Notes under the pieces: generated by a model
Told to the model about the DNA's origin: nothing
What the model saw: the letters and a program-made list of their open reading frames with translations, nothing else
Databases searched by the model: none
Assembly: GCA_903913215.1 (NCBI GenBank)
Contig: CAIWKE010000027.1
Span: 62,001 to 126,000 of the forward strand
Source of the DNA: an uncultured Holophagaceae bacterium
Lineage (GTDB): Bacteria > Acidobacteriota > Holophagae > Holophagales > Holophagaceae
DNA: 64,000 bases
Reading direction: 5' to 3'
Shown: piece after piece, positions 6,957 through 46,913 of the stretch
Layout of the letters: every line of letters begins with the position of its first letter
Numbering within the stretch: the first letter of the stretch is position 1
Program-made: the position numbers and the translations under genes

Positions 6957-8457
6957 GTCGGTCCTGAAAAACCCTATGCTGGCGATTAGGCCGCCACGAG
7001 GGCCTGCTGAGGGGCCGCCTCGGCTTCGAGCAAGGTGACGAGGGTCTCGATGGCCTTCCTGGGCTCGCCCATAAAAAGGCGCAAAAGGGCCATGAGGTGG
7101 GCCAGGATCTTCCTCATGTTGTGGCCAGCGCCGCTGAGGATGACGTTCTGGGCGTCTCCGACGACTCCCTTGAGGAAGTTCCGCCCGAGAAGTTCGTCTG
7201 ATTTCATGTGGCCCAGTTCTGGTTCGATGGGGGCTCGTCGTCGTAGGTCCCGTTTGAGCATTTTGCTGAGCCTTCGGGTGCCGCTTATGAGGACCGCGGT
7301 TCGGCCAGGATCCACGCCGTGGCCCTTGTACCCCTTGTCCACGAAGGTCGTGGCTGGCATTCGGCCTGTGAGTTGTTCAACCTGCCCCAGTTGACGCTCG
7401 AGCGTGTGGCCGTCGTACGGGTTCTATGGGCAGCTCATGGCGCCCACAACGAAGCCTTCCTTGTGCGTCACTGCGAGGCTTGCCTTCACGCCGAATTCGT
7501 AGGGCTTGTGCGCCTTCCCCTTGGCGATGCATTCGACCTCGGGTGCGTGCAGGCTGTAGACCTTGCCTTTGGTCGAGCGCTTCTGCGTGAGGATGAGGTG
7601 GGACAGGATCAGCGTGCCCCTGTGCTTCTGGAAGCATGCGTCGTCGATCTTCCGCTCGACGTCACGCATCACCCTGCCCGCCATCGTCTTCAGGCTCTTC
7701 AGAACCCTCTTCGCCCTCTTGAACTGCTTGGCCTTCGCGTGGCCGCCATGCTTGCGGAAGCCCCAATCCATGAGGTTCCGGTAGTTCTGTCGCAGCTTGA
7801 TCCCCTCTAGACCGGCGATGTGCAGCATGGCTGCGTGGACCTTCCGATACAGGCGCGCGTCCGTCGGATGCTGCACCGCCTTGGGCTGGACGGTCGTATC
7901 CACGATGACCTTCTCGAAACTGCGCTCCGTGATGGTCCCTGTGGCCTTCCCTGCCGTGATCGTGGCTTCCAGAAGTTTCTCCACACCCTTTTCGCCGATG
8001 CGCCTCCGCCAGCGCGTCATCTGCGAAGGGTGGATCGGGAAGTGGTGCTGGAACATCACCTCTCCGCAGAAGTGCTGCCAGTAAGGGTTCTCGACCCACC
8101 CCTTCACCACGTCCTCATCCGACAGGCCATAGGTGTGCTTGAGCAGGTGCAGACCAGCCATCAGGCGAATGGGGATCCCTGGACGACCCAGATCCGGCAC
8201 ATAGAGACGACCGAATTCCTGCGCCAGGTCGTCCCACGGGATCTTCGACGCCAGCCTCACCAGTTCGTGGTTCGGGTACAATGCCAAGTCCAATTCCCAC
8301 CCGATCACCGGCTGATCCTTCGTCGTCCGCCTCGGCTGTGGCTTCATTCGTACACCAGAAATACGGGGGTCTCCCCTTCCTTTCTGGTGTACCAGATATG
8401 CCGAAAGTTCCCTTAAATTGTTGTCATACCTGAATATGCGACTTGTTCAGGGCCGAC
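6957..8457 (-). mobile_element. IS5-type insertion sequence with 7-bp target duplication
   Basis: A 1,501-bp element. The left end reads GTCGGTCCTGAA and the right end, read inward, is GTCGGCCCTGAA, giving near-identical terminal inverted repeats. The sequence TAGTGAA lies directly outside both ends (6950-6956 and 8458-8464), a perfect 7-bp target duplication, so the insertion is fairly recent. The single transposase gene is on the minus strand and is interrupted by a stop codon. A second, truncated copy is at 45728-46913. Confidence 0.85.
6986..8347 (-). pseudogene. IS5-type transposase, nonsense mutation
   Basis: A 453-codon transposase gene on the minus strand. The N-terminal domain (WDDLAQEFGRLY, PIRLMAGLHLLKHTYGLSDE) is followed by a DDE catalytic region starting with VIVDTTVQPKAVQHPTD, and a C-terminal GAGHNMRKILAHL segment. 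After GAMSCP, at about 7424, a TAG replaces the GAG found in the second copy (CPENPYDG). The frame continues unchanged on both sides of the stop. The element is therefore probably immobile unless transposase is supplied by another copy. Confidence 0.85.
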
Positions 8458-8464
8458 TAGTGAA

Positions 8465-9134
8465 GGCAACCTTGGCGGACTGTTGCGTGAACTCCCAAGC
8501 CTGCCTTCTCGACAGGCGATCCTCTTAGAGTGGGCCACCCCCATCCCGTCCTGGTTGAAATGAATGAACTGGGAAAGGCCCAGCGACCGCGTTCGGACGA
8601 TCCGGATTTTCGGGATACATGGACCGGTCGTGCATAACGCGATATCGAATGGGGTGTAGTCAGTACCGACTGGGTCGGTAGGTCTCCATCTTGATCATGA
8701 GCACCCCGCTGGACACCTTCTCCAACCATGCCCGGGGGATCCTTTCCAGGGCTACCCAGTGGAGCTCCCCAACAGAAATGTGCCTTGAGGCGTTCATTGC
8801 CTGCTTTTCGGTCAGAATGGGTGTTGGACATCCACTCGGTTGTGATATTCGAACACCTTCAAATCAGACATAGGCTCCCCGGATTTGGATTACCCAGAAC
8901 AATTTGCGTGGGGATGGAATTCCCATGAATTCTCCGTTGTTGGCGACTCCGTAGCCCTATGCTGCTGTTAGAAATTAATATTCCCCAAGTCGTCCCCTCG
9001 CATTTTGGGCTTACCTCGGGCCAACTGGCCATCACAGTGACGAGGGTGCCCATTAGTTCACCACGCGTTCCACCTTGCTGGGCCTGCAAGGCCAGCCCCT
9101 GAATCAGTTGTTTTCGCTTACGAAGAACCCCCGA
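8465..9134. other. Gene-poor stretch, possible remnants
   Basis: No convincing gene. On the minus strand around 8650-8830 one frame gives a protein-like VGELHWVALERIPRAWLEKV stretch without a start, perhaps a decayed fragment. Directly after the stop of the gene ending at 9135 the same frame stays open to about 8859 (RKRKQLIQGLALQAQQGG), which may be a lost C-terminus or chance. Confidence 0.3.
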
Positions 9135-11540: not shown

Positions 11541-11714
11541 CAGAACGCCGTGCTCTGCGCCGCAGGGCACAACATGAAGTTGATCCTCGCCCACCTCATG
11601 CGTCATTTTGTCTTCCTTAGGGCTGGTTGCTGGTCGCGCTTAATCCTCGGCCGCGAAACCTTGCGTCGCAGGATGGTGCAGCCTAATTCGTGAAGGGGCT
11701 TTCTCAAGGCCGAC
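11541..11714 (+). pseudogene. Remnant of IS5-type transposase 3' end
   Basis: The plus-strand reading QNAVLCAAGHNMKLILAHLM matches the C-terminal QNVILSGAGHNMRKILAHLM of the intact IS in this window. About 20 nt after its stop lies TTCTCAAGGCCGAC, resembling the IS terminal repeat. The element is otherwise lost. The surrounding 11190-11727 stretch holds no other gene that I can see. Confidence 0.6.
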
Positions 11715-11727
11715 TACGACTACCAAA

Positions 11728-12327
11728 TTAGTTACAAGTAATGGTGCAATTAATCCCGTCGATACTTACAGATGTTGTCGGGCAGCAAGAAGAAATCGTG
11801 CCGCAGCGATCACTAGTGTAGGTGATGGGATAACACCCCTCGCCGCCGCCGCTACCACCAGATCCATCGCCCGGATCCTTCTGTTGAATGATACCCATGG
11901 AAATTGCTCCAGTTCGAGAGGTAGATTCATTTGGAACAATCAGGCGAACACTCCGCCTAGGCACTGCATGAAGGTGAAGGACTAACACTACGGAGTGTGA
12001 AGCCGGATCCCTTTCTAAAATCAGTCGTGTTTGACTAAGGTGGGTCAGACTAGCCGATGCCACTGGAGAAATTACCGTCCTTGAAATGATTGTCCTATCT
12101 GTTGACGATCGTTCTTGGTCGATATCGATTCCATTTTGCCCTGCAATTGAAAGGACGACTTCGGCTGAACCATCAGTGCGCAACGAACTCGTATATAGGA
12201 GTTCGACGGTATATCTCTCCTGCATGGGTACATTTGTAACCGTTTGGGCCTGGATGAGCGTCGGCGATACGCAAGTACACGCAACTAGGATTAAACCTTG
12301 TAAGAAAGGATAGGCGAATTTGGACAT
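11728..12327 (-). CDS. Exported protein with Cys-rich C-terminal segment
   Basis: A 199-aa protein with a signal peptide (MSKFAYPFLQGLILVACTC...QA). A beta-rich middle region (YTVELLYTSSLRTDGSAEVVLSI; LVLHLHAVPRRSVRLIV) is followed by a Gly/Ser linker (DGSGGSGGGEG) and a 36-residue tail with seven Cys, including the pair in SSCCPTTS and the ending INCTITCN. The start at 12327 has GGAG 6 nt upstream. The linker plus Cys-rich tail looks like a separable disulfide-rich module. Function unknown; it is isolated between an IS remnant and a 365-nt gap. Confidence 0.6.
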   Translation of the reverse strand: MSKFAYPFLQGLILVACTCVSPTLIQAQTVTNVPMQERYTVELLYTSSLRTDGSAEVVLSIAGQNGIDIDQERSSTDRTIISRTVISPVASASLTHLSQTRLILERDPASHSVVLVLHLHAVPRRSVRLIVPNESTSRTGAISMGIIQQKDPGDGSGGSGGGEGCYPITYTSDRCGTISSCCPTTSVSIDGINCTITCN

Positions 12328-35292: not shown

Positions 35293-37446
35293 CTAGTAGT
35301 GAACAAGCACTGTAGTCGAGGTGGAAGCGGTGGCTCCAGATGAATCTGTCGCGACCACCCGAACGGTGGCTGGTAATGTCGCCCCCTTGGTGTAGTTGCT
35401 AGGGTCAATTGCCGGGGTCAGGCTGGTCGCTTGGCCAGACTCGCAATCATAAGTCTGGCCTCCTCGCGTGATCGACCATCTATAAGTGAGTTGTGCGGAT
35501 GGATTTGAATCATTAGGTGAGGCGTTGCAAGAAAATGAGGAATCGTTGTACACAATCTGGTTCGGAGTTGGGCTTGTGATTTGAATGCTCAATGTATTCA
35601 TGGTGGACGACCAATTGTTGACCATGGCTAGCACATTAGGGCTGCCTAGGCCCGTAACGCCGTCCCAGGCCGGCCCTGCGGTCGATCCAGATAGCCCAGG
35701 GACATCGTTGTTTCCATTCGTGATGTCGTGGAATACTGCCGAGCCCCCGAAGGCATACTGCATTATTCCAAGTCCATATAGCCGCGAATTCGGGTTACCC
35801 TGACGGCCACGCTTCTGCACGATCAAGGCCATCATTCCAGCAAAGGATGGAGCAGCGACAGAGGTACCGCCAGTAATCTGAAGCTGATTTTGGCTGAAGA
35901 TCATCATTCCATAATTTCCGAAGAACATGTCGGAGCCATCGAAGCAAACATCAGGTAGAAGGCGCTGTGTACTGCAAGGCACACCCGGGCCGATTTGCCA
36001 TGATGGGATACCGTACACCGAGGAACTGCCGCTGCCGGTGGCCCATAGGTGGCTGCCTCCAGGCACCGAGCCACTTTCATTCCAGGGGGTTTCAGGAATG
36101 TACCCCTTAGGAGTGCCATCGGAATTCCAATATGCGGATGAATTACTAAGTTGTGTGGCCCCGACCGCGACATTGTAGGGGGTCGATGCCAAGCCGTTCA
36201 CGCCTCCAAATCCACTTCCGCTGGTCCCACTCCCGGCTGCACAGCCTGCAGCACCTGCGTCACCTGATGAGACGCAGACGGAAATACCTTGCGCTGCGGC
36301 CTGCGCCCACAGATTGCTATAGAAATTATTCTCAGTCGTACCCATGGTCGATTCGCACGAACCATAACTGACAGAAATAATGTCCGCCAAATTAGTGGAA
36401 ACAGCATATTGAGCGGAAAGGTCAATTCCGTCGGTGGCCCCAGTCGACTTGGTCGTTACAAACTTGATGGTCGCACCGGGGGCCGTGCCACCGGCCCACT
36501 CCAAATCCAGATCCGACTCGCCACCATCTCCAGTAGCATAGCCGTCCCCGGGAGTGTTCCCATTCACGATCACAACAGGGTCATTGGTTGGGAGGCCCAG
36601 GGTACTTCTGAATGTGGTCCAATTACTAGAAGGAGGCAAAGCCTTTCCAAGCACCGCGATTGTCGCGCTGGTGCCATTTCCATTCACCGCATATGATGCA
36701 GCCGCATTATAAATGGTCGCCCAATCAACTGGACTCGTATACACGCTGGCCGGATGGCCAGGGTACGCCCAAAGTGGGGAGGCGCCAATACTGTAGTTTC
36801 GCCTCGGGACGTTGTGAAGAGAAACAACGCCATGAACCAGACTCGTGAACTTGGATGGTATGCGCAATTCCGTCGCATTGCCATGCCGGACCGTACCGTC
36901 GACCACGACATCCACCATTTTCACGCCAAAGGTTCGTTCAATCGCTGCCACGCTGGCAGAGCAAATGATGGTCATTCCTCCAGCGGGTTGGTCATCAATC
37001 TGAAACCCGTTTGAAACCAACCAATCGCTCACCAGATCGACCGATTTCGAGGTTGGGGCAAATCGTTCCTGGAATTCGAGTGGCGTGAGCCAGCGGTGGT
37101 AATTGGGAGAGGTCAAATCCTGTTGTTGAAGGATCAGCTCATCCAACTTGGCTTTGGCATCAGGTGCTAGTTTGAGGGAAAGGATGATCTTCTCCATCCG
37201 AAGAGACTGATCGGTTGAACCAACGATCATGCGACTGGTGAATTCGGGGCGAACACTGCCAGCGATGATGGTGGTGGACTCATCTACCGCTGGGGAGGCC
37301 TGGGGCGCGATGGCCGGTTCTTGACTTGATCCGGATATCAGCGGCGTGGCCATGAGGCTCCCAGCAATCAGAGGCATGATCGCTTTGAGTTTCAGGCTGT
37401 AAGGCCGGACTAAGCCGGTTACGTGGTTGGCCCAAGGATAATTCAT
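35293..37446 (-). CDS. S53 (sedolisin/kumamolisin-type) peptidase preproprotein
   Basis: A 717-aa secreted serine-carboxyl peptidase. A signal/anchor region is followed by a pro-domain (SPNYHRWLTPLEFQERFAPT). The catalytic domain has GGESDLDLEWAGG (Glu/Asp), SGDAGAAGC near the oxyanion Asp, and GGTSVAAPSFAG with the nucleophile Ser. AWDGVTGLGSPNV belongs to the calcium site near the end. A C-terminal Ig-like tail (QITSPTPNQIVYNDSS; YRWSI) follows. Such enzymes work at acidic pH. ATG 37446 has GGAGG 7 nt upstream. It lies near the RiPP locus and could process peptides, but is on a separate transcription unit. Confidence 0.88.
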   Translation of the reverse strand: MNYPWANHVTGLVRPYSLKLKAIMPLIAGSLMATPLISGSSQEPAIAPQASPAVDESTTIIAGSVRPEFTSRMIVGSTDQSLRMEKIILSLKLAPDAKAKLDELILQQQDLTSPNYHRWLTPLEFQERFAPTSKSVDLVSDWLVSNGFQIDDQPAGGMTIICSASVAAIERTFGVKMVDVVVDGTVRHGNATELRIPSKFTSLVHGVVSLHNVPRRNYSIGASPLWAYPGHPASVYTSPVDWATIYNAAASYAVNGNGTSATIAVLGKALPPSSNWTTFRSTLGLPTNDPVVIVNGNTPGDGYATGDGGESDLDLEWAGGTAPGATIKFVTTKSTGATDGIDLSAQYAVSTNLADIISVSYGSCESTMGTTENNFYSNLWAQAAAQGISVCVSSGDAGAAGCAAGSGTSGSGFGGVNGLASTPYNVAVGATQLSNSSAYWNSDGTPKGYIPETPWNESGSVPGGSHLWATGSGSSSVYGIPSWQIGPGVPCSTQRLLPDVCFDGSDMFFGNYGMMIFSQNQLQITGGTSVAAPSFAGMMALIVQKRGRQGNPNSRLYGLGIMQYAFGGSAVFHDITNGNNDVPGLSGSTAGPAWDGVTGLGSPNVLAMVNNWSSTMNTLSIQITSPTPNQIVYNDSSFSCNASPNDSNPSAQLTYRWSITRGGQTYDCESGQATSLTPAIDPSNYTKGATLPATVRVVATDSSGATASTSTTVLVHY

Positions 37447-38176
37447 TAACATTCCTCCAGGACGAATTGTGGGATGGGTTCAGCGCAATCCGAAGTTGGG
37501 GTGAACCGAGTGCGGTGGCAGACGGGCTGAGTTCAACTTTCGAATTGGGTGAACGATGTTTTCTTCTGCGACCCTAGCAACGGCCACGAACAAAGACTTG
37601 AATTCACCCTGATCGGGGTAATTTCACCTCCGAACCGTCGGTGCCCCTCCATCGATGGCGGAGAGCCTAGGCTGGTCTACCTCCCCTCCAATACGCGAAG
37701 GCAATCGCCGTTATTCAGCGCTTAATCATGCAAATATAAGAGATGTAGTCGCCTTAGGATCCATTCCGGATATCAGGGCCCTTCTGCGCAAGGATCCCCA
37801 CGCAATGGGGCGCATTCCCCGGTGGAGGATGGAAGCATGGTCAGCAGATTGCGGCTGTTGGCGTCACGCGACACCCCCAACCTTTAGCTCGAGTTTCGGC
37901 ACACCGCCGTAAAGGTGTGTCTTCCATCCGTGATCTGGATAGTGCAGTTCGGTGATCGCGAGATTCTGATTCTCCGCACCCTACGCTACCGAATTCGAAT
38001 GGGGCAGGGACAACAAGGCGTATCCCCTCAGCGGGTGCGGTGACGTCGATCGATCACGTTGGTCGTGCGGTTTACGTTTGATAGGTAACCTTACCTTGCC
38101 GACACAAAGGGTTCGTACCCATAAGTCCTGATCGTGTGAGGCAGAAAATTGGTTTGCTGTTGCCTTGAATGGTGCA
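37447..38176. other. Long gap without supported gene
   Basis: About 730 nt between the divergent-facing S53 gene start and the end of the LytTR gene. One 85-codon frame at 37655-37912 is open on the plus strand, but it has no ribosome site and its sequence is not convincing. It presumably contains the promoter of the S53 gene. Confidence 0.35.
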
Positions 38177-38917
38177 TTACGGTGTCACGGACCGAAGGAT
38201 TTCCTTCACCCGAGGTGTCATGGCCCTGCTGACAGGTAGTTCAACACCTTGAACAACCATGACTCTGATCCGTCCAACTGCCATTGGCCGGATCCCAATT
38301 GCCATTGATGGCCTGAGCAGTTGATGGCGTTGGATTCGAATCAACCCTTCGTCTGGAAACGCTTGTTCCACTTCAGACAGGGCCGACCAACGTGTCTTGT
38401 GCCGATTTCGCCCTCTGCAGGCGATGACATGATCGTTCTCCAATTCGAAATGGGTTATGGTGCTCAGTTCCATGAAAACTTCGCCTTCTCCGGCCTTCAC
38501 TGGGAAGCGGGCAGGAGGCGGAAATAGGGCCCGCATCTCGGATGGACTGAGCCTACGCACTAACCTCTCTTGCAACCGATCCAGGCATTTTGTCAGCCGA
38601 TCAGGAAACACGGGCTTCAGTAGATAGTCCACAGCCGCTAACTCAAAGGCGCGCACCGCATACTCGGAATAGGCTGTCACAAAGACCACAGGGGGGTAAT
38701 TCTCAGCTTCGGCTAGTACCTCCATCCCATTAAGCCCAGGCATCTGAATATCCAGGAAAATGACGTCCACTTGGTTTCCCTGCTTTAGCCACTTGAGGAG
38801 GGCTATGCCATCCTCAAGTTCATCGACAACTAGACATCCCGCTTCATGAAGGAGGCGGGATAACCGTTCCCTGGCCAGCGGTTCATCATCAACTACTAGG
38901 GTCTTTAGTTGTTTCAT
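38177..38917 (-). CDS. LytTR-family response regulator
   Basis: A 246-aa protein. The receiver domain has DDEP near 10-13, phosphoacceptor D56 (VIFLDIQMPG), and FVTAYSEYAV and VDYLLKPV as switch residues. The C-terminal LytTR DNA-binding domain has FELENDHVIAC and FPDEGLIRIQRHQLL. It overlaps the histidine kinase gene upstream by 29 nt. LytTR regulators often control peptide signalling and bacteriocin genes, which fits the precursor gene at the head of this operon. Confidence 0.9.
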   Translation of the reverse strand: MKQLKTLVVDDEPLARERLSRLLHEAGCLVVDELEDGIALLKWLKQGNQVDVIFLDIQMPGLNGMEVLAEAENYPPVVFVTAYSEYAVRAFELAAVDYLLKPVFPDRLTKCLDRLQERLVRRLSPSEMRALFPPPARFPVKAGEGEVFMELSTITHFELENDHVIACRGRNRHKTRWSALSEVEQAFPDEGLIRIQRHQLLRPSMAIGIRPMAVGRIRVMVVQGVELPVSRAMTPRVKEILRSVTP

Positions 38918-40088
38918 TGCTGCATTCTACTCGCGTGACCTCAAGCCGAATGCTGGCAAGTGTCCCAAGCTCTGAGGGACCGATCGAAAGTTCAGCCCGT
39001 GATCCGAAATGCAGGGACAACCGAGAACTCAGGTTTCTCATGCCTAGGCCACCAGGCCCCTTCTTTTCCTCGTATGGCAGCCCCGTATTCCATACTTCTA
39101 GGAATAATTTGCCACCTAACGCCCTTGCTCGGATGTGGACCTCACCACCGGGAATACTCGGCGAGATTCCGTGCTTGATCGCATTTTCAACAAGGGGTTG
39201 GAGCAGCAGAGGTGGAATCTCAACCTGATCAAGGGTATCGTCCCATTCCCAGGTGATTCGTAGGCGTTTGCCGAGACGGATGGCTTCCAATGCCAAGAAG
39301 TCGGTGATGATCTGCTTTTCTTCTCTAAGGGGAAGCCGAGTATGCTCTGAAGCCTGCATAATCCTGCGCAATAAATCTGAAAGATGGCGAACGGCAATTT
39401 CTGCGTCATTCGAATTCTTGTGGATCAGTTCCGCAAGGCCATTAAGTGCATTGAATAAAACGTGAGGGTGTATTTGGCTTTGAAGTAGCCTGTTTTTTGC
39501 GAACAGAGCTTCAACTTCTGAGGCTTCCCTCCGTTCCTCGGACCGCGCCTGGGCCGCAACCAGTCCACCAACGATCATCATGGCTGGGCCAACCAGGGAC
39601 GTGTATAGGTCCACAAGCCTGCCCATATTGAATTTGAGAGACCCATGAGCGAGTATCCAGGCATCGATGACAGGAAGGAGGGCTGCGACAACTTCGCAAC
39701 CAATCAACGAAAGAGCGAATCCAACAACGAATCGCCAGGGGGACCTAAGATTCCTTGGCAAAAGCCATGGCAGTGGGGCGAAGAAGGCAAACGCTCCCAC
39801 GTGAATCAAAGGTGAGAGGAAAGTACTGGCAAGTGTCCATCCGGAACCCAGCCGATGGTGGGTTATGTGCCCATACAGGACGAGAAGGACCCACAGGGAA
39901 TAGCAGGTGACTACGACACGCCAATTTTTTGTGAGAGGGAACAGTGGATTCCTCCTGTTCGCCGACGCCAACTCATCGCTGCGAGTGGCGTCGGCGAATT
40001 CAGAATGATCCTCAAGGAATGGTGACAGTGAGTGTCGTCGTGATGGTTGGATCCCATTTCTCACCGTGAGACCCCAGCCCCTTGGCAT
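38889..40088 (-). CDS. LytS/YehU-type sensor histidine kinase
   Basis: A kinase of up to 399 aa. Several transmembrane segments lie at about 55-180 (YSLWVLLVLYGHI; FVVGFALSLIGCEVVAAL). The phosphoacceptor region is LLQSQIHPHVLFNALNGLAE, and the ATPase has LLLQPLVENAIKHGIS and GGLGMRNL, the His_kinase/LytS signature. The N-terminus is uncertain: ATG 40088 lies inside the precursor-peptide gene with no ribosome site, and the only other starts before the TM region are non-ATG (for example TTG 39971). It is coupled to the precursor gene upstream and the LytTR gene downstream, and may sense the modified peptide. Confidence 0.85.
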   Translation of the reverse strand: MPRGWGLTVRNGIQPSRRHSLSPFLEDHSEFADATRSDELASANRRNPLFPLTKNWRVVVTCYSLWVLLVLYGHITHHRLGSGWTLASTFLSPLIHVGAFAFFAPLPWLLPRNLRSPWRFVVGFALSLIGCEVVAALLPVIDAWILAHGSLKFNMGRLVDLYTSLVGPAMMIVGGLVAAQARSEERREASEVEALFAKNRLLQSQIHPHVLFNALNGLAELIHKNSNDAEIAVRHLSDLLRRIMQASEHTRLPLREEKQIITDFLALEAIRLGKRLRITWEWDDTLDQVEIPPLLLQPLVENAIKHGISPSIPGGEVHIRARALGGKLFLEVWNTGLPYEEKKGPGGLGMRNLSSRLSLHFGSRAELSIGPSELGTLASIRLEVTRVECSNETTKDPSS

Positions 40089-40179
40089 TCTGGAAATCGG
40101 GGGAATTGTTGTTCAGTGATTCGCTCGCGTTGCTTGAGCACTGGATGGATTCCTTCTGGAAGGAAAGGCTGTTGCTCAT
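40012..40179 (-). CDS. Candidate RiPP precursor peptide
   Basis: A 55-aa peptide with GGAG 5 nt before ATG 40179. The N-terminal part is Ser/Asn-rich and polar with one Cys at position 14. The C-terminal part after KWDP is TITTTLTVTIP, unusually rich in Thr, as expected for a substrate of a Ser/Thr dehydratase. The classical FNLD leader motif is not seen. Its core has no Cys, so if modified it would be a linear dehydrated peptide rather than a lanthionine-ringed one. It lies in the promoter gap divergent from LanB and is the first gene of the operon with the histidine kinase and LytTR regulator. Function is inferred from location and composition. Confidence 0.6.
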   Translation of the reverse strand: MSNSLSFQKESIQCSSNASESLNNNSPDFQNAKGLGSHGEKWDPTITTTLTVTIP

Positions 40180-40379
40180 TGGATCTCCAAGGTAGCGCCA
40201 CGGGGCGCAGCCTTGGTTTTGGGACCGGACCGTGTTGAGGCCAATAGATTTCCATAAACGGTATATAAGCACAGTGCCAACCGTTGGGCCTCAATCAATG
40301 ACCATTCGAGAGCAGAAGTTGGCCCTTGACAGGTGGTGGTGGTGTCTTGGTGGATCTGACTTCCCACGGACTACGCGCC

Positions 40380-43300
40380 ATGGCATTACAACCTACATGC
40401 AGAACTGCGGGATTCTTTGTCCTTCGCACTCCAAGTCTGCCAGCGGATTCCTTGGCAACCAGCCCCCGATTGGTTGCTGGTTCTGGACAATATGCATCGA
40501 ACGATGATCCCCTGGAAGACAATCGGGCCGAATTTCGCAGGGTCATTCGCGATTTGGTCAGTCGAGGGGAGGTTCGGAATGCGATTGCCTTGGCCTCTCC
40601 TGATCTCGCTTCTCAGATCCCATCTTGGCTTGAAGGAACCTTAAGGGCGAAGGCTGCCAAAAGTGTGGAGAGATCCTTGGTGAAATACTTGAGCCGAATG
40701 TCCAGTCGTTCGACTCCCTTCGGCCTATTCGCGGGCATCGTAACCGGGGTTTGGGGTGATTCAACCACATTGACTCTCGGTCCCAATTCCGATGACCGGA
40801 AGGTGGTTCGATTGGATTGGGGAATCATCCAGTCCGTCGTGTGTAAGTTGGAGCAAGATCCAGTTGTGAGATCGTGGATCTCATACCGCCCCAACTCAAG
40901 TATTTACCAAAGTGGAGACTGCTATCGATATTTAGAACGAAAGAACCCAACAGGAAAATCTGGTGCCTTCCATTTGGAAGCCATCAAAGCCACTTCCCAT
41001 CTGGATTTAGTCCTATTGAAGGCGAAGGGTGGGGCCAAGTGGGAAGAACTTGTCGATGCACTTACTTCTGGGGCCGCCGTCGGCGCAGAGGAGGCGAAAG
41101 CATTTCTCAACAAGATCATCGATGCACAGGTGCTTTGTAGTAACCTTCGCCCCCCTCTTTCAAGCGCAGATCCTCTTGGTTACCTGATTAAGACCCTCCA
41201 TGAAATTCCGATGGGGGGGGTGCTTGCCGAACCCCTCGAAGCATTGGCTAGAGAATTGCGGCGGTTTGAGTGCGAACCAATGTCTAGTCATTCCAAATGG
41301 CGCGAACGGCTTCAAACGGTATTGACTGCAATAGGAATACCAGCCGATTCGGGAAATTTTATTCAGGTAGATCTGTACAAGTCTTCTGAGGGGTTGACAC
41401 TTTCATCAACCATCGGTGATGAGCTTGCGAAGGGCGCCGAAACGCTTCGGAGGCTCACTCCGGTCACACAACTAGGACCGATGGATCGATTTCGTTCCGC
41501 ATTTTCTGAGCGGTATGGTGATCGCTGGATGCCAATACTCGAGGTTTTGGACGAGGAGAGCGGGATAGGATTCGATGGGGCTACTCCCCTAGGATCATCC
41601 CTACTCGATGGAATCTCATTCCAGCGAACATCACCGTCAAAGATTCCATCGCGTAGAGATTTGTTTCTACTGAGCCAATCACATTGTTGGCAGGGAAGAC
41701 TCATCTGGGAATTAAATGAAGAAGACCTTGAGGGGCTAGAGAATCCAAATCCCCATCCCTTTTCGCATTCATTCTCCGCCCTTGTTAGCCTATCGGCTTC
41801 AAATCAGGATGCAATGGACCGCGGTGAATTCAGGTTCTTTATGGACCAGTTCTCCGGGGCTACGGCAGCCAGGTGGCTGGGGCGGTTTGCCGGAGGTGAT
41901 CCATTCTTAAAGAATTCTCTCATTGAGCACCTGAAACTGGAAGAAGCAGCCAATCCTGAAATCATATTCGCCGAAGTCATCCATAGCCCAGAGGGAAGGA
42001 TGGGGAATGTTCTGGCTCGGCCAGCCCTTAGAACCTATGAAATCCCATACCTAGCCAGTTTTGGAGTCGAGGAAGACCAAGCCATTCAGCCTGCTGATTT
42101 GATTGTGACCGTTCGAGGGGATCGGGTGTTCCTCGCTTCCCGTCGCCTAGGGAAGGAGGTCATCCCACGATTGTCCTCCGCACACAATTTCATGAGGGGT
42201 CCAGTCGTTTATCGGTTTTTAGCTCATCTACAAGACCAGGATGGCCGTCCGGGAGGCTGGTCCTGGGGGCCTTTGACGGACCTTCCATACTTACCAAGGG
42301 TCACACACGGAAAGCACGTTATCAGTAAAGCGCGGTGGAGGATCGAGGCCAGTGAATTGAAGGAATCCCTCGCTGAATCGAATGATCAGCCCTGGGATGC
42401 CTTCCAGTTATTGCGCGAACGTCGAGGGCTGCCGAGATTGGTGATGCTTGTCGAGGGCGACAATCACCTTCTGGTAGACATGGATCAAATAAACCGAGTG
42501 GAAACGTTACACCATATCGTTAAAGAGTTATCAGCTTTTAAATTGGTTGAGTGTTTTCCTGACCCGAATCAGTTGGTCGTAAATTCCCCAGAAGGGAAAT
42601 TCGCCCATGAATTAGTAATCCCCTTCGAGGCTTTGAATCACCAACCTGTTCGGAAAGCGCCTTTGACGCAAATAAAATCAGGGAGGAGCTTCAGGGCATT
42701 TCCACCGTATTCAGAGTGGCTTTATTTGAAACTCTACTGCGGAGCATTTAGCGCGGATCGTCTACTTCGGGAATTAGAGCCTCTCCTCAAGAGCACAAAG
42801 GGAGATGGGATATGGGATAAGTGGCATTTTGTTAGATATATAGATCAAGCTCATCATCTCCGGCTGAGATTTCATGGCCGGCCTGAGCGATTGCTCACAG
42901 AATTGCTCCCTTTGGTTCAACGGCACTTGGCAGGGGTGCTGGGCAGTGAAACGTTATGGAAAATTCAAGTGGATACCTACGATCAGGAACTGGAAAGATA
43001 CGGCGGAATCCTTGGTTTCGATTTGGCCACATCATGGTTTCATGTTGACAGTCAGAATATTCTCGATCATTTGATGGTTGGTGATGACCCCTGTCATCGA
43101 TGGAAAATCGGCCTGGCAGAAGTCGACGCAATATGGGCGGCAATGGGCCTAAATATTCTCGAGAGAATGGCCTTGGCTAGGTCGTCCCGAGATGCCTTCC
43201 GTGAAGAATTCCAGAAACCCGCATATTCGTTACCGGAAGTCAGCCGTAAGTACAGGGAGATTCGCAGCGAATTTCAGGACTTCATCCCGACACCTTTCAG

Positions 43301-43571
43301 CTCCAATCCTCCAACCAGATATTTTCACCTCATTTGCATTCGAGATGCCGCAGAGGAGGGAGCTCTTCAAGAGGATCTCCTATCGATAGCGAGAAGCATG
43401 GCTCACATGCATTTAAACCGCTTACTTCATGCAAACCAGCGTGAACAGGAGTGGGTCCTGATGGAATTGCTTGAACGATTCTACGCCTCAGCCCTCGCAC
43501 GTGGAGGGAAGGACTCTGCTCAAGGCCTAGACACTGCTGATTCGGTTGGAACAGGCCACAAATTCCTGTGA
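40380..43571 (+). CDS. Full-length LanB-type lantibiotic dehydratase
   Basis: A 1,063-aa protein. The N-terminal glutamyl-transfer region starts with GFFVLRTPSLP and has the SRSTPFGLFAG motif near residue 107, typical of LanB. The C-terminal 280 residues (EWLYLKLYCGAFSADRLL; FVRYIDQAHHLRLRFHG) are the SpaB_C elimination domain. LanB uses glutamyl-tRNA to dehydrate Ser and Thr in a precursor peptide. ATG 40380 is chosen; an open frame extends upstream to 40326. No LanC cyclase, transporter or leader protease gene lies next to it. The divergent 55-aa Thr-rich peptide is the best substrate candidate. Confidence 0.9.
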   Translation: MALQPTCRTAGFFVLRTPSLPADSLATSPRLVAGSGQYASNDDPLEDNRAEFRRVIRDLVSRGEVRNAIALASPDLASQIPSWLEGTLRAKAAKSVERSLVKYLSRMSSRSTPFGLFAGIVTGVWGDSTTLTLGPNSDDRKVVRLDWGIIQSVVCKLEQDPVVRSWISYRPNSSIYQSGDCYRYLERKNPTGKSGAFHLEAIKATSHLDLVLLKAKGGAKWEELVDALTSGAAVGAEEAKAFLNKIIDAQVLCSNLRPPLSSADPLGYLIKTLHEIPMGGVLAEPLEALARELRRFECEPMSSHSKWRERLQTVLTAIGIPADSGNFIQVDLYKSSEGLTLSSTIGDELAKGAETLRRLTPVTQLGPMDRFRSAFSERYGDRWMPILEVLDEESGIGFDGATPLGSSLLDGISFQRTSPSKIPSRRDLFLLSQSHCWQGRLIWELNEEDLEGLENPNPHPFSHSFSALVSLSASNQDAMDRGEFRFFMDQFSGATAARWLGRFAGGDPFLKNSLIEHLKLEEAANPEIIFAEVIHSPEGRMGNVLARPALRTYEIPYLASFGVEEDQAIQPADLIVTVRGDRVFLASRRLGKEVIPRLSSAHNFMRGPVVYRFLAHLQDQDGRPGGWSWGPLTDLPYLPRVTHGKHVISKARWRIEASELKESLAESNDQPWDAFQLLRERRGLPRLVMLVEGDNHLLVDMDQINRVETLHHIVKELSAFKLVECFPDPNQLVVNSPEGKFAHELVIPFEALNHQPVRKAPLTQIKSGRSFRAFPPYSEWLYLKLYCGAFSADRLLRELEPLLKSTKGDGIWDKWHFVRYIDQAHHLRLRFHGRPERLLTELLPLVQRHLAGVLGSETLWKIQVDTYDQELERYGGILGFDLATSWFHVDSQNILDHLMVGDDPCHRWKIGLAEVDAIWAAMGLNILERMALARSSRDAFREEFQKPAYSLPEVSRKYREIRSEFQDFIPTPFSSNPPTRYFHLICIRDAAEEGALQEDLLSIARSMAHMHLNRLLHANQREQEWVLMELLERFYASALARGGKDSAQGLDTADSVGTGHKFL

Positions 43572-45727: not shown

Positions 45728-46913
45728 TCGGCCCTGAAAAACCCCGTTCTGGCGATTAGGCAGCCATGATGGCCTGCTGAAGGCACGCTTCGATCTGGAG
45801 CAAGGCGATGAGGCCCTCGATGGCCTTCCTGGGCTCGCCCATAAGAAGGCGCAAAAGGGCCCTGAGGTGGGCCAGGATCTTCCTCATGTTGTGGCCCGCA
45901 CCGCTGAGGATGACGTTCTGGGCGTCTCCGACCACTCCCTTGAGGAAGTTCCGTCCGAGGAGTCCGTCTGATTTCATGTGGCCCAGTTCTGGTTCGATGG
46001 CGGCTCGTCGTCGTAGGTCTCGCTTGAGCATTTTGCTGAGCCTTCGGGTGCCGCTGATGAGGACCATGCTTCGGCCAGGATCAACGCCGTGGCCCTTGTA
46101 TCCCTTGTCCACGAAGGTCGTGGCTGGCATTCGGCCGGTGAGTTGCTCGACCTGCTCCAGTTGACGCTCGAGCGTGTGGCCGTCGTAGGGGTTCTCTGGG
46201 CAACTCATGGCGCCCACCACGAAGCCCTCCCCGTGCGTCACCGCGAGGCTCGCCTTCACGCCGAATTCGTAGGGCTTGTGCGCCTTGCCCTTGGCGATGC
46301 ATTCGACCTCGGGCGCGTGCAGGCTGTAGACCTTGCCCTTGGTCGTGCGGTTCTGCGTGAGGACCAGATGGGACAGGATCAACGTGCCCTTGTGTTTCTG
46401 AAAGCCCGCGTCGTCGATCTTCCGCTCCACATCCCGCATCACCCGGCCCGCCATGGTCTTCAGGCTCTTCAGAACCTTCCTGGCTCGCTTGAACTGCTTG
46501 GCTTTCGCGTGGCCGCCGTGCTTGCGGAAGCCCCAGTTCATGAGGTTCCGATAGCTCTGCCGCAGCTTGATGCCTTCGGCACCGGCGATTCTAAGCATTG
46601 CCGCGTGGACCTTCCGATACAGGCGGGCATCGGTCGGATGCTGAACGGCCTTCGGCTGTACCGTGGTGTCCACGATGACCTTCTCGAAGCTACGCTCCGT
46701 GATCGTCCCCGTGGCTTTCCCGGCTGTGATCGTCGCTTCCAGAAGTTTCTCCACGCCCTTCTCGCCAATGCGCCTCCGCCAGCGCGTCATCTGCGAGGGG
46801 TGGATCGGGAAGTTGTGTTGGAACATCACCTCGCCGCAGAAGTGCTGCCAGTAAGGGTTCTCGACCCACCCCTTCTCCACGTCCTCATCCGAGAGGGCGT
46901 AGGTGTGCTTGAG
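45728..46913 (-). mobile_element. Truncated second copy of the IS5-type element
   Basis: The left end (GTCGGCCCTGAAAAACC) and about 1.18 kb match the element at 6957-8457, but the copy stops after GTGCTTGAG at about 46913. The right 270 bp, with the transposase N-terminus and the other terminal repeat, are missing. The copy differs at many positions from the first, so the two are not a very recent duplication. Confidence 0.8.
45756..46913 (-). pseudogene. IS5-type transposase lacking N-terminus
   Basis: The minus-strand frame is open over 374 codons from 46880 and includes the DDE core (VIVDTTVQPKAVQHPTD) and an intact CPENPYDG where the first copy has a stop. The N-terminal domain (about 75 residues) is lost at the junction with a foreign gene fragment. 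The protein would be non-functional without its DNA-binding N-terminus. Confidence 0.8.

Follow-up and report, generated by a model that had tools for sequence, protein, structure and literature searches.

Results

A LanB gene divergent from a precursor, kinase and regulator operon

The window (the whole 64,000-nucleotide stretch of DNA analysed here) comes from a soil and sediment bacterium related to Geothrix and carries a conserved four-gene unit (Table 1). A gene for a RiPP precursor peptide (MSNSLSFQKESIQCSSNASESLNNNSPDFQNAKGLGSHGEKWDPTITTTLTVTIP) heads an operon that continues with the genes for a histidine kinase (HK) and a response regulator (RR); the gene for the modifying enzyme, LanB, is divergent. 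The ATG of the precursor is preceded, at a distance of 5-8 nt, by a GGAG ribosome-binding site. LanB translation likely begins at ATG 40380, with TTG 40326 as an upstream alternative. The original prediction had proposed a genuine 55-aa peptide, a divergent full-length LanB and a LytTR regulator following the kinase on the peptide strand, all of which the present analysis bears out; the interval that it gave (40012-43571) takes in the peptide and LanB but leaves most of the HK and RR genes outside.

Table 1. Features of the window locus and of its surroundings.
Feature	Position	Strand	Remarks
RiPP precursor peptide, 55 aa	40012..40179	-	Leader and Thr-rich, Cys-free tail kept in 30 modules
Precursor parts: leader MSNSLSFQKESIQ...; predicted core ~PTITTTLTVTIP	within 40012..40179	-	
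LanB, full-length class I dehydratase, 1063 aa	40380..43571	+	PF04738 and PF14028; NisB catalytic positions kept
Histidine kinase, PF06580 family, four TM helices and kinase domain	38889..39971	-	Start uncertain
Response regulator with LytTR DNA-binding domain	38177..38917	-	Domain matches
Control element AACGGTT-N16-ACCGTTTATGG, two LytTR-like half-sites	40252..40285	-	
Third half-site GAATGGTC, consensus GAACGGT, LanB side	40300..40307	-	21-22 bp from AACGGTT
Conserved 5′ leader hairpin CCAAGGCTGCGCC-CCGT-GGCGCTACCTTGG	40187..40216	-	3′ arm overlaps Shine-Dalgarno sequence
Kumamolisin-like (S53) protease, long, secreted-looking	35293-37452	-	About 730 bp past the regulator
Transposase-like ORF	45756-46880	-	LanB side of the module
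Short ORF MSEKKPNQP..., 58 aa	47826-48002	+	Ends ...TVHPxPxxKK
Short ORF MSEKKPSQP..., 55 aa	48041-48208	+	Related to the preceding, in tandem; same ending

The regulator matches both a receiver (E=3.6e-25) and a LytTR domain (E=7.4e-8), and the kinase matches PF06580 (E=2.5e-18). The designation "LytS-like" given previously to the kinase holds for the kinase domain and fails for the sensor, which consists of four predicted transmembrane (TM) helices; the domain search found no other sensor domain, 5TM-LYT included. In a structure model of the kinase, which is of low confidence (pLDDT 58), the long helices anticipated at the N-terminus are visible. The HK reading frame is open up to ATG 40088, an extension that is not conserved: homology to relatives sets in at approximately residue 24-50 of the longest ORF, and TTG 39971 aligns with ATG, GTG or TTG codons of the relatives. 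With this start, a gap of about 40 nt separates the peptide stop codon from HK. A start at CTG 39944 was discarded as this codon is not conserved in the relatives.

The S53-like protease is probably unrelated to the module, as genes of its cluster are not seen next to any other module.

The precursor family

On a different contig, the same genome harbors the complete unit once more, with a precursor that ends in a different tail (MSNSLSFRKETIQHSSSTSTIPSTQVDVTRDSKFDGGANDPKAPITTILTTIYP). Altogether, 30 intact precursors (29 extracted automatically and one, L074, by eye) were obtained from 29 genomes of Geothrix and other Holophagaceae. Recurrence of the same leader and tail in the second module and throughout this set indicates that the peptide ORF is no chance reading. 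Shared traits are the leader LSFRKESIQ, found in place of the FNLD motif whose absence had been noted before, and a variable Thr-rich tail devoid of Cys. Positions M1, L5, F7, R8, K9, E10, Q13, S16, S19 and T51 are invariant or nearly so, while tails vary widely (ISLTTLLTL, TLTTTVFTI, FSFTVTATITII, SITVTYTTSM, ASITITTTLTHTDWLD). Across 29 precursors, Ser and Thr account for 42% of the 12 C-terminal residues, compared with 24% in the remainder, and none of the 348 residues in these tails is a Cys. The earlier statement that the peptide has no Cys thus applies to the core, where it reflects a conserved trait, but not to the leader of the window copy, which has a Cys at position 14 (the only such case among the 29). 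When 396 genomes of the phylum were searched with a profile of the peptide, nothing credible appeared beyond the family; the sole other match (E=0.009) contains three internal stops.

LanB relatives are present in 36 of the 77 family genomes. The conservation check proposed with the original prediction was run: the peptide, HK and RR recur in the same order beside related LanB genes, and module LanBs adjoin HK and RR wherever the contig reaches far enough. Apart from the four, no gene is a consistent neighbor of the module. Precursor, modifier, membrane kinase and regulator form one conserved unit, as in peptide-autoinducer systems. Named hosts include Geothrix fermentans DSM 14018, G. oryzisoli, G. 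limicola, G. campi, G. terrae, G. paludis, G. fuzhouensis and G. rubra. At one locus (L070, G020:C78, ~11631-11870), the start and the LSFRKE sequence have been lost from the precursor, which still ends in the tail AITTTITLTIP; the other three genes (LanB, kinase, regulator) are intact there.

LanB is predicted to be catalytically complete

Ligase-type LanB proteins lack the elimination domain. The window LanB has both the glutamylation domain (Lant_dehydr_N, E=1.6e-154) and the elimination domain (Lant_dehydr_C, E=9e-51) of class I enzymes, the latter complete (255 of 255 positions), which places it outside the PEARL group. Its residues were positioned by phmmer alignment to NisB, the positions considered being those assigned to glutamylation or elimination. 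Counterparts are present for NisB R87/T89 (RSTPFGLF), D121 (RLD), D299 (IQVD) and R464 (GRF), as well as R784/R786 (HLRLRF) and E823/R826 (YDQELERYGG). Eight module LanBs show no variation in any of these columns, nor at H1009 of a C-terminal HMHLNR motif. Because the NisB residues are so maintained, the protein should both glutamylate and eliminate.

LanC and export genes are absent

The lack of a nearby LanC gene, previously noticed in the sequence, extends to the entire genome and to the whole module clade: LanC (PF05147) was found neither in the genome of origin nor at any module locus, so lanthionine formation by a distant LanC was discarded. Within the family, 7 of 77 genomes have LanC; the six copies considered, those of all these genomes but G066, each adjoin a LanB outside the module clade. 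As also noted before for the window, no transporter is conserved beside modules, and the same is true of peptidase and immunity genes (neighbors of all modules). The genome encodes no C39 peptidase and module precursors share no GG site, and export through a GG-peptidase ABC transporter was rejected on these grounds.

In a FastTree phylogeny of 65 LanBs, module LanBs form one clade (support 97), sister (100) to the LanC-associated type of locus L054 and nested among LanC-bearing lineages. The precursor encoded on the same stretch as the L054 LanB (MEKQDGKKKLSLNKETLKSLTQKEEGEVAAGGLSYFVCRTDYCGTKGRSCWC) has a leader of similar style, a GG site and a Cys-rich core. Two neighbor protein clusters are common to several LanC loci; judging from length and position, they represent a putative ABC transporter and a putative HlyD-like protein. 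Given the nested position of the module clade, loss of LanC, of precursor Cys and of the GG site is the simplest history, and LanC was probably lost in the module lineage. With neither LanC nor a core Cys, no lanthionine ring can be expected. That the product is linear and dehydrated is a well-supported inference, since LanC is missing genome- and clade-wide and the Cys-free, Thr-rich tail is conserved.

A putative control element confined to module and receiver-only loci

Three half-sites lie between the divergent genes in the order GAACGGT, 21-22 bp, AACGGTT, N16, ACCGTTCATGG. The distance from AACGGTT to the precursor start is 106 nt in 28 of 29 loci (exactly so in the window) and 105 in the other. 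Half-sites two and three match, on one strand or the other, the LytTR half-site consensus [TA][AC][CA]GTTN[AG][TG]. Allowing up to three mismatches, the element gave 29 matches in 27 of the 47 genus genomes, all at modules or at the receiver-only loci described below. Neither the element at any other place nor a reversed control pattern was found in the 47 genomes, and no wider regulon sharing the element came to light in this set. The predicted DNA target of the kinase-regulator pair is thus only the promoter region of its own unit.

Covariation in the 5′ leader hairpin is modest, with double changes in 5 of 12 pairs (none of 500 shuffles scored as high), and RNAalifold retains just a 5-bp core. 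Assignment of the 5′ leader to a known RNA family was rejected, the microRNA matches being all below threshold.

Receiver-only loci

Three loci (in G010, in G011 and the second locus of G021) have the control element followed directly by intact HK and RR genes, without peptide or LanB. G011, whose genome is 100% complete on a single contig, lacks LanB. Nucleotide flanks are nearly identical in all three cases, suggesting that the receiver-only state probably arose in a single event. The dN/dS ratios (0.20-0.31 for HK, 0.17-0.22 for RR) are close to those of the module genes and indicate that both genes are under purifying selection; they could be serving another function at these loci. At a further locus, L077 (G021:C1), LanB is reduced to a truncated remnant (~8410-9018), with peptide, HK and RR intact.

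Co-divergence of the tail and the kinase sensor

Across 27 modules, tail distances track those of the HK sensor domain once the distances of kinase, RR, LanB, 5′ UTR, spacer and leader are taken out (partial Mantel r=0.31, p=0.0025, in a type of test that is liberal), and show no such relation to LanB (r=0.00, p=0.52). That the adjacent 5′ UTR does not follow the sensor (p=0.15) speaks against physical linkage as the sole cause. The leader spacer also tracks the sensor (r=0.30 after removal of the core), so that the co-divergence is not specific to the tail. As a sign of sensing, the tail-sensor relationship is suggestive.

Similar loci in Bacteroidota

Among Bacteroidota LanBs fetched from named genomes, loci without LanC (judged within 6 kb) often place LanB next to genes for a PF06580 kinase and a LytTR regulator and also encode a short peptide whose tail contains Ser/Thr. 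Examples are found in Dyadobacter (L145, L153), Siphonobacter (L163), Hymenobacter (L157), Fibrisoma (L175), Mucilaginibacter (L178, L183; tail ...TTTETGTITATATGII) and Chryseobacterium soli (L184; tail ...TSISISSSFF). These LanBs fall in clades other than that of the Geothrix module in the 65-LanB tree. Some of the candidate peptides contain Cys, LanC could lie farther off than 6 kb, and some of the adjacencies may be due to chance as kinase/LytTR pairs are common in these bacteria. In six Chryseobacterium loci (L150, L152, L159, L172, L176 and L182), LanB is split into parts of about 730 and 280 aa, with no LanC within 6 kb.

Discussion

Taking the gene set and its conservation, the catalytic residues, the lack of LanC and C39, the control element and the receiver-only loci as read from the genomes, we infer a pathway of dehydration, cleavage, export, sensing and autoinduction. 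LanB would bind the LSFRKESIQ leader, glutamylate Thr and Ser residues of the tail using Glu-tRNA and then eliminate glutamate, producing a linear, hydrophobic, dehydrobutyrine-rich peptide without lanthionine rings. The tail would be released and exit the cell through housekeeping functions. The four-TM kinase would sense it in the membrane and phosphorylate the LytTR regulator which, by binding the shared divergent control region, would raise expression of LanB and of the precursor-HK-RR operon. We favor, as the probable explanation, a self-contained RiPP signalling module in which a LanB-only, ring-free dehydrobutyrine peptide acts as a self-sensed signal. Sensing of the modified tail by the kinase would account most economically for three observations: the peptide gene leads the operon of the kinase, sensor and tail diverge together, and receivers are retained on their own. 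The promoter element, the receiver-only loci and the tail/sensor co-divergence lend self-sensing indirect support, and the kinase-regulator pair appears to control the module's own promoters. Counting against a signal, no exporter or leader peptidase was found (among module neighbors, or genome-wide for C39), the sole predicted target of the regulator in the 47 genus genomes is the module itself, the leader spacer shares the co-divergence with the sensor, and the HK and RR of receiver-only loci could have another role.

LanB products of class I lantibiotics are often antimicrobial, and the peptide might be a secreted bioactive directed against relatives, with the kinase and regulator merely inducing its production in response to the peptide, as for nisin, or to some cue. 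Divergence of the tails between species and the coexistence of two differing modules in one genome would suit such a role; yet genes for immunity, transport or proteolysis are not conserved in any module, a peptide that is purely an antibiotic would not be expected to leave receiver-only loci and the control element occurs solely at the module, making this explanation unlikely. Slightly less likely again is a scheme in which the kinase responds to another cue, such as envelope or redox state. The dehydrated peptide would then be the output and act as an effector inside the cell or in the membrane, without its tail being sensed. This would fit with the missing exporter, with the retention of the HK/RR pair at peptide- and LanB-free loci of three genomes and with the absence of the element from any other gene; against it speak the co-divergence of core and sensor beyond that of kinase, RR and LanB, and the location of the peptide gene directly 5′ of the kinase gene, an arrangement shared with peptide sensing systems. 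Finally, the substrates of uncharacterised LanBs are unpredictable from sequence, and the enzyme might leave glutamyl esters or act in the manner of a peptide ligase, the product then not being rich in dehydrobutyrine. The complete elimination domain, absent from ligase-type LanBs, and the invariance of the elimination residues at NisB R784, R786, E823 and R826 and of the HMHLNR motif in the eight LanBs make this highly improbable.

On the preferred reading, that of a self-sensed signal, the module appears to represent a type of bacterial peptide signal that has so far gone unrecognised and that lacks the rings typical of lantibiotics. More tentatively, and with slightly less than even confidence, we propose that LanB-only, ring-free dehydrobutyrine peptides make up a pheromone class of bacteria, sensed by small-sensor PF06580/LytTR systems. 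This class would have arisen independently in Geothrix (Acidobacteriota) and in Bacteroidota and been overlooked because class I lanthipeptide surveys take LanC as their starting point. LanB enzymes are familiar from antibiotics; the present one is tied to a kinase and a regulator alone, without cyclase, exporter or immunity. If the peptide is a signal, it would represent a Gram-negative pheromone class with new chemistry, for which a cultured host (G. fermentans DSM 14018) and natural receiver-only strains are at hand for tests, and would explain the blindness of LanC-based mining (PMC7268733). Such loci would have escaped that large lanthipeptide survey because LanC was used as bait (PMC7268733). 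Among the papers searched, none joined Geothrix with a lanthipeptide, and none on LanC-less LanB with LytTR systems was found.

Comparison with known systems

The module resembles the nisin system (NisA/B/C/T/P/R/K) in its full-length LanB, leader/core precursor and two-component control of the peptide genes. It differs in lacking LanC, core Cys, transporter, protease and immunity genes, and in having a four-TM PF06580 kinase and a LytTR regulator in place of NisK/NisR. The LSFRKESIQ leader is reminiscent of the KLxLxKETI leaders of Bacteroidota-type class I lanthipeptides (NCBIfam lant_leader_L1a, NF038153). This model matched neither the window peptide nor the precursor of the second module, while the precursor of the sister, LanC-bearing Holophagaceae type scored just below its cut-off of 22 (21.4 bits, E=2e-4). 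Peptides of the lant_leader_L1a type have GG sites, Cys-rich cores and LanC, and their Holophagaceae relatives have putative ABC transporter and HlyD-like genes, whereas the module has none of these.

Goadsporin and the thiopeptides likewise contain LanB-made dehydroamino acids without LanC or lanthionine rings. Their biosynthesis involves a split LanB and YcaO azole formation (PMC10676384); no YcaO-type gene is conserved in the module, the four genes alone being consistently adjacent at module loci. In organisation the unit resembles Agr-like operons, with a small precursor, a dedicated modifier, a membrane kinase, a LytTR regulator and a promoter region that is predicted to be self-regulated; in contrast to Agr, the modifier is a LanB, the kinase is of the PF06580 (four-TM) rather than the AgrC type, the predicted product is linear and peptide sensing is putative. 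Another gene resembling a lanthipeptide synthetase and tied to a peptide quorum-sensing operon is the LanM-like CA_C0082 of Clostridium, located downstream of agr (PMC10301443). CA_C0082 lacks catalytic residues and is an effector rather than a signal maker, whereas the module LanB is, by its residues, catalytically complete.
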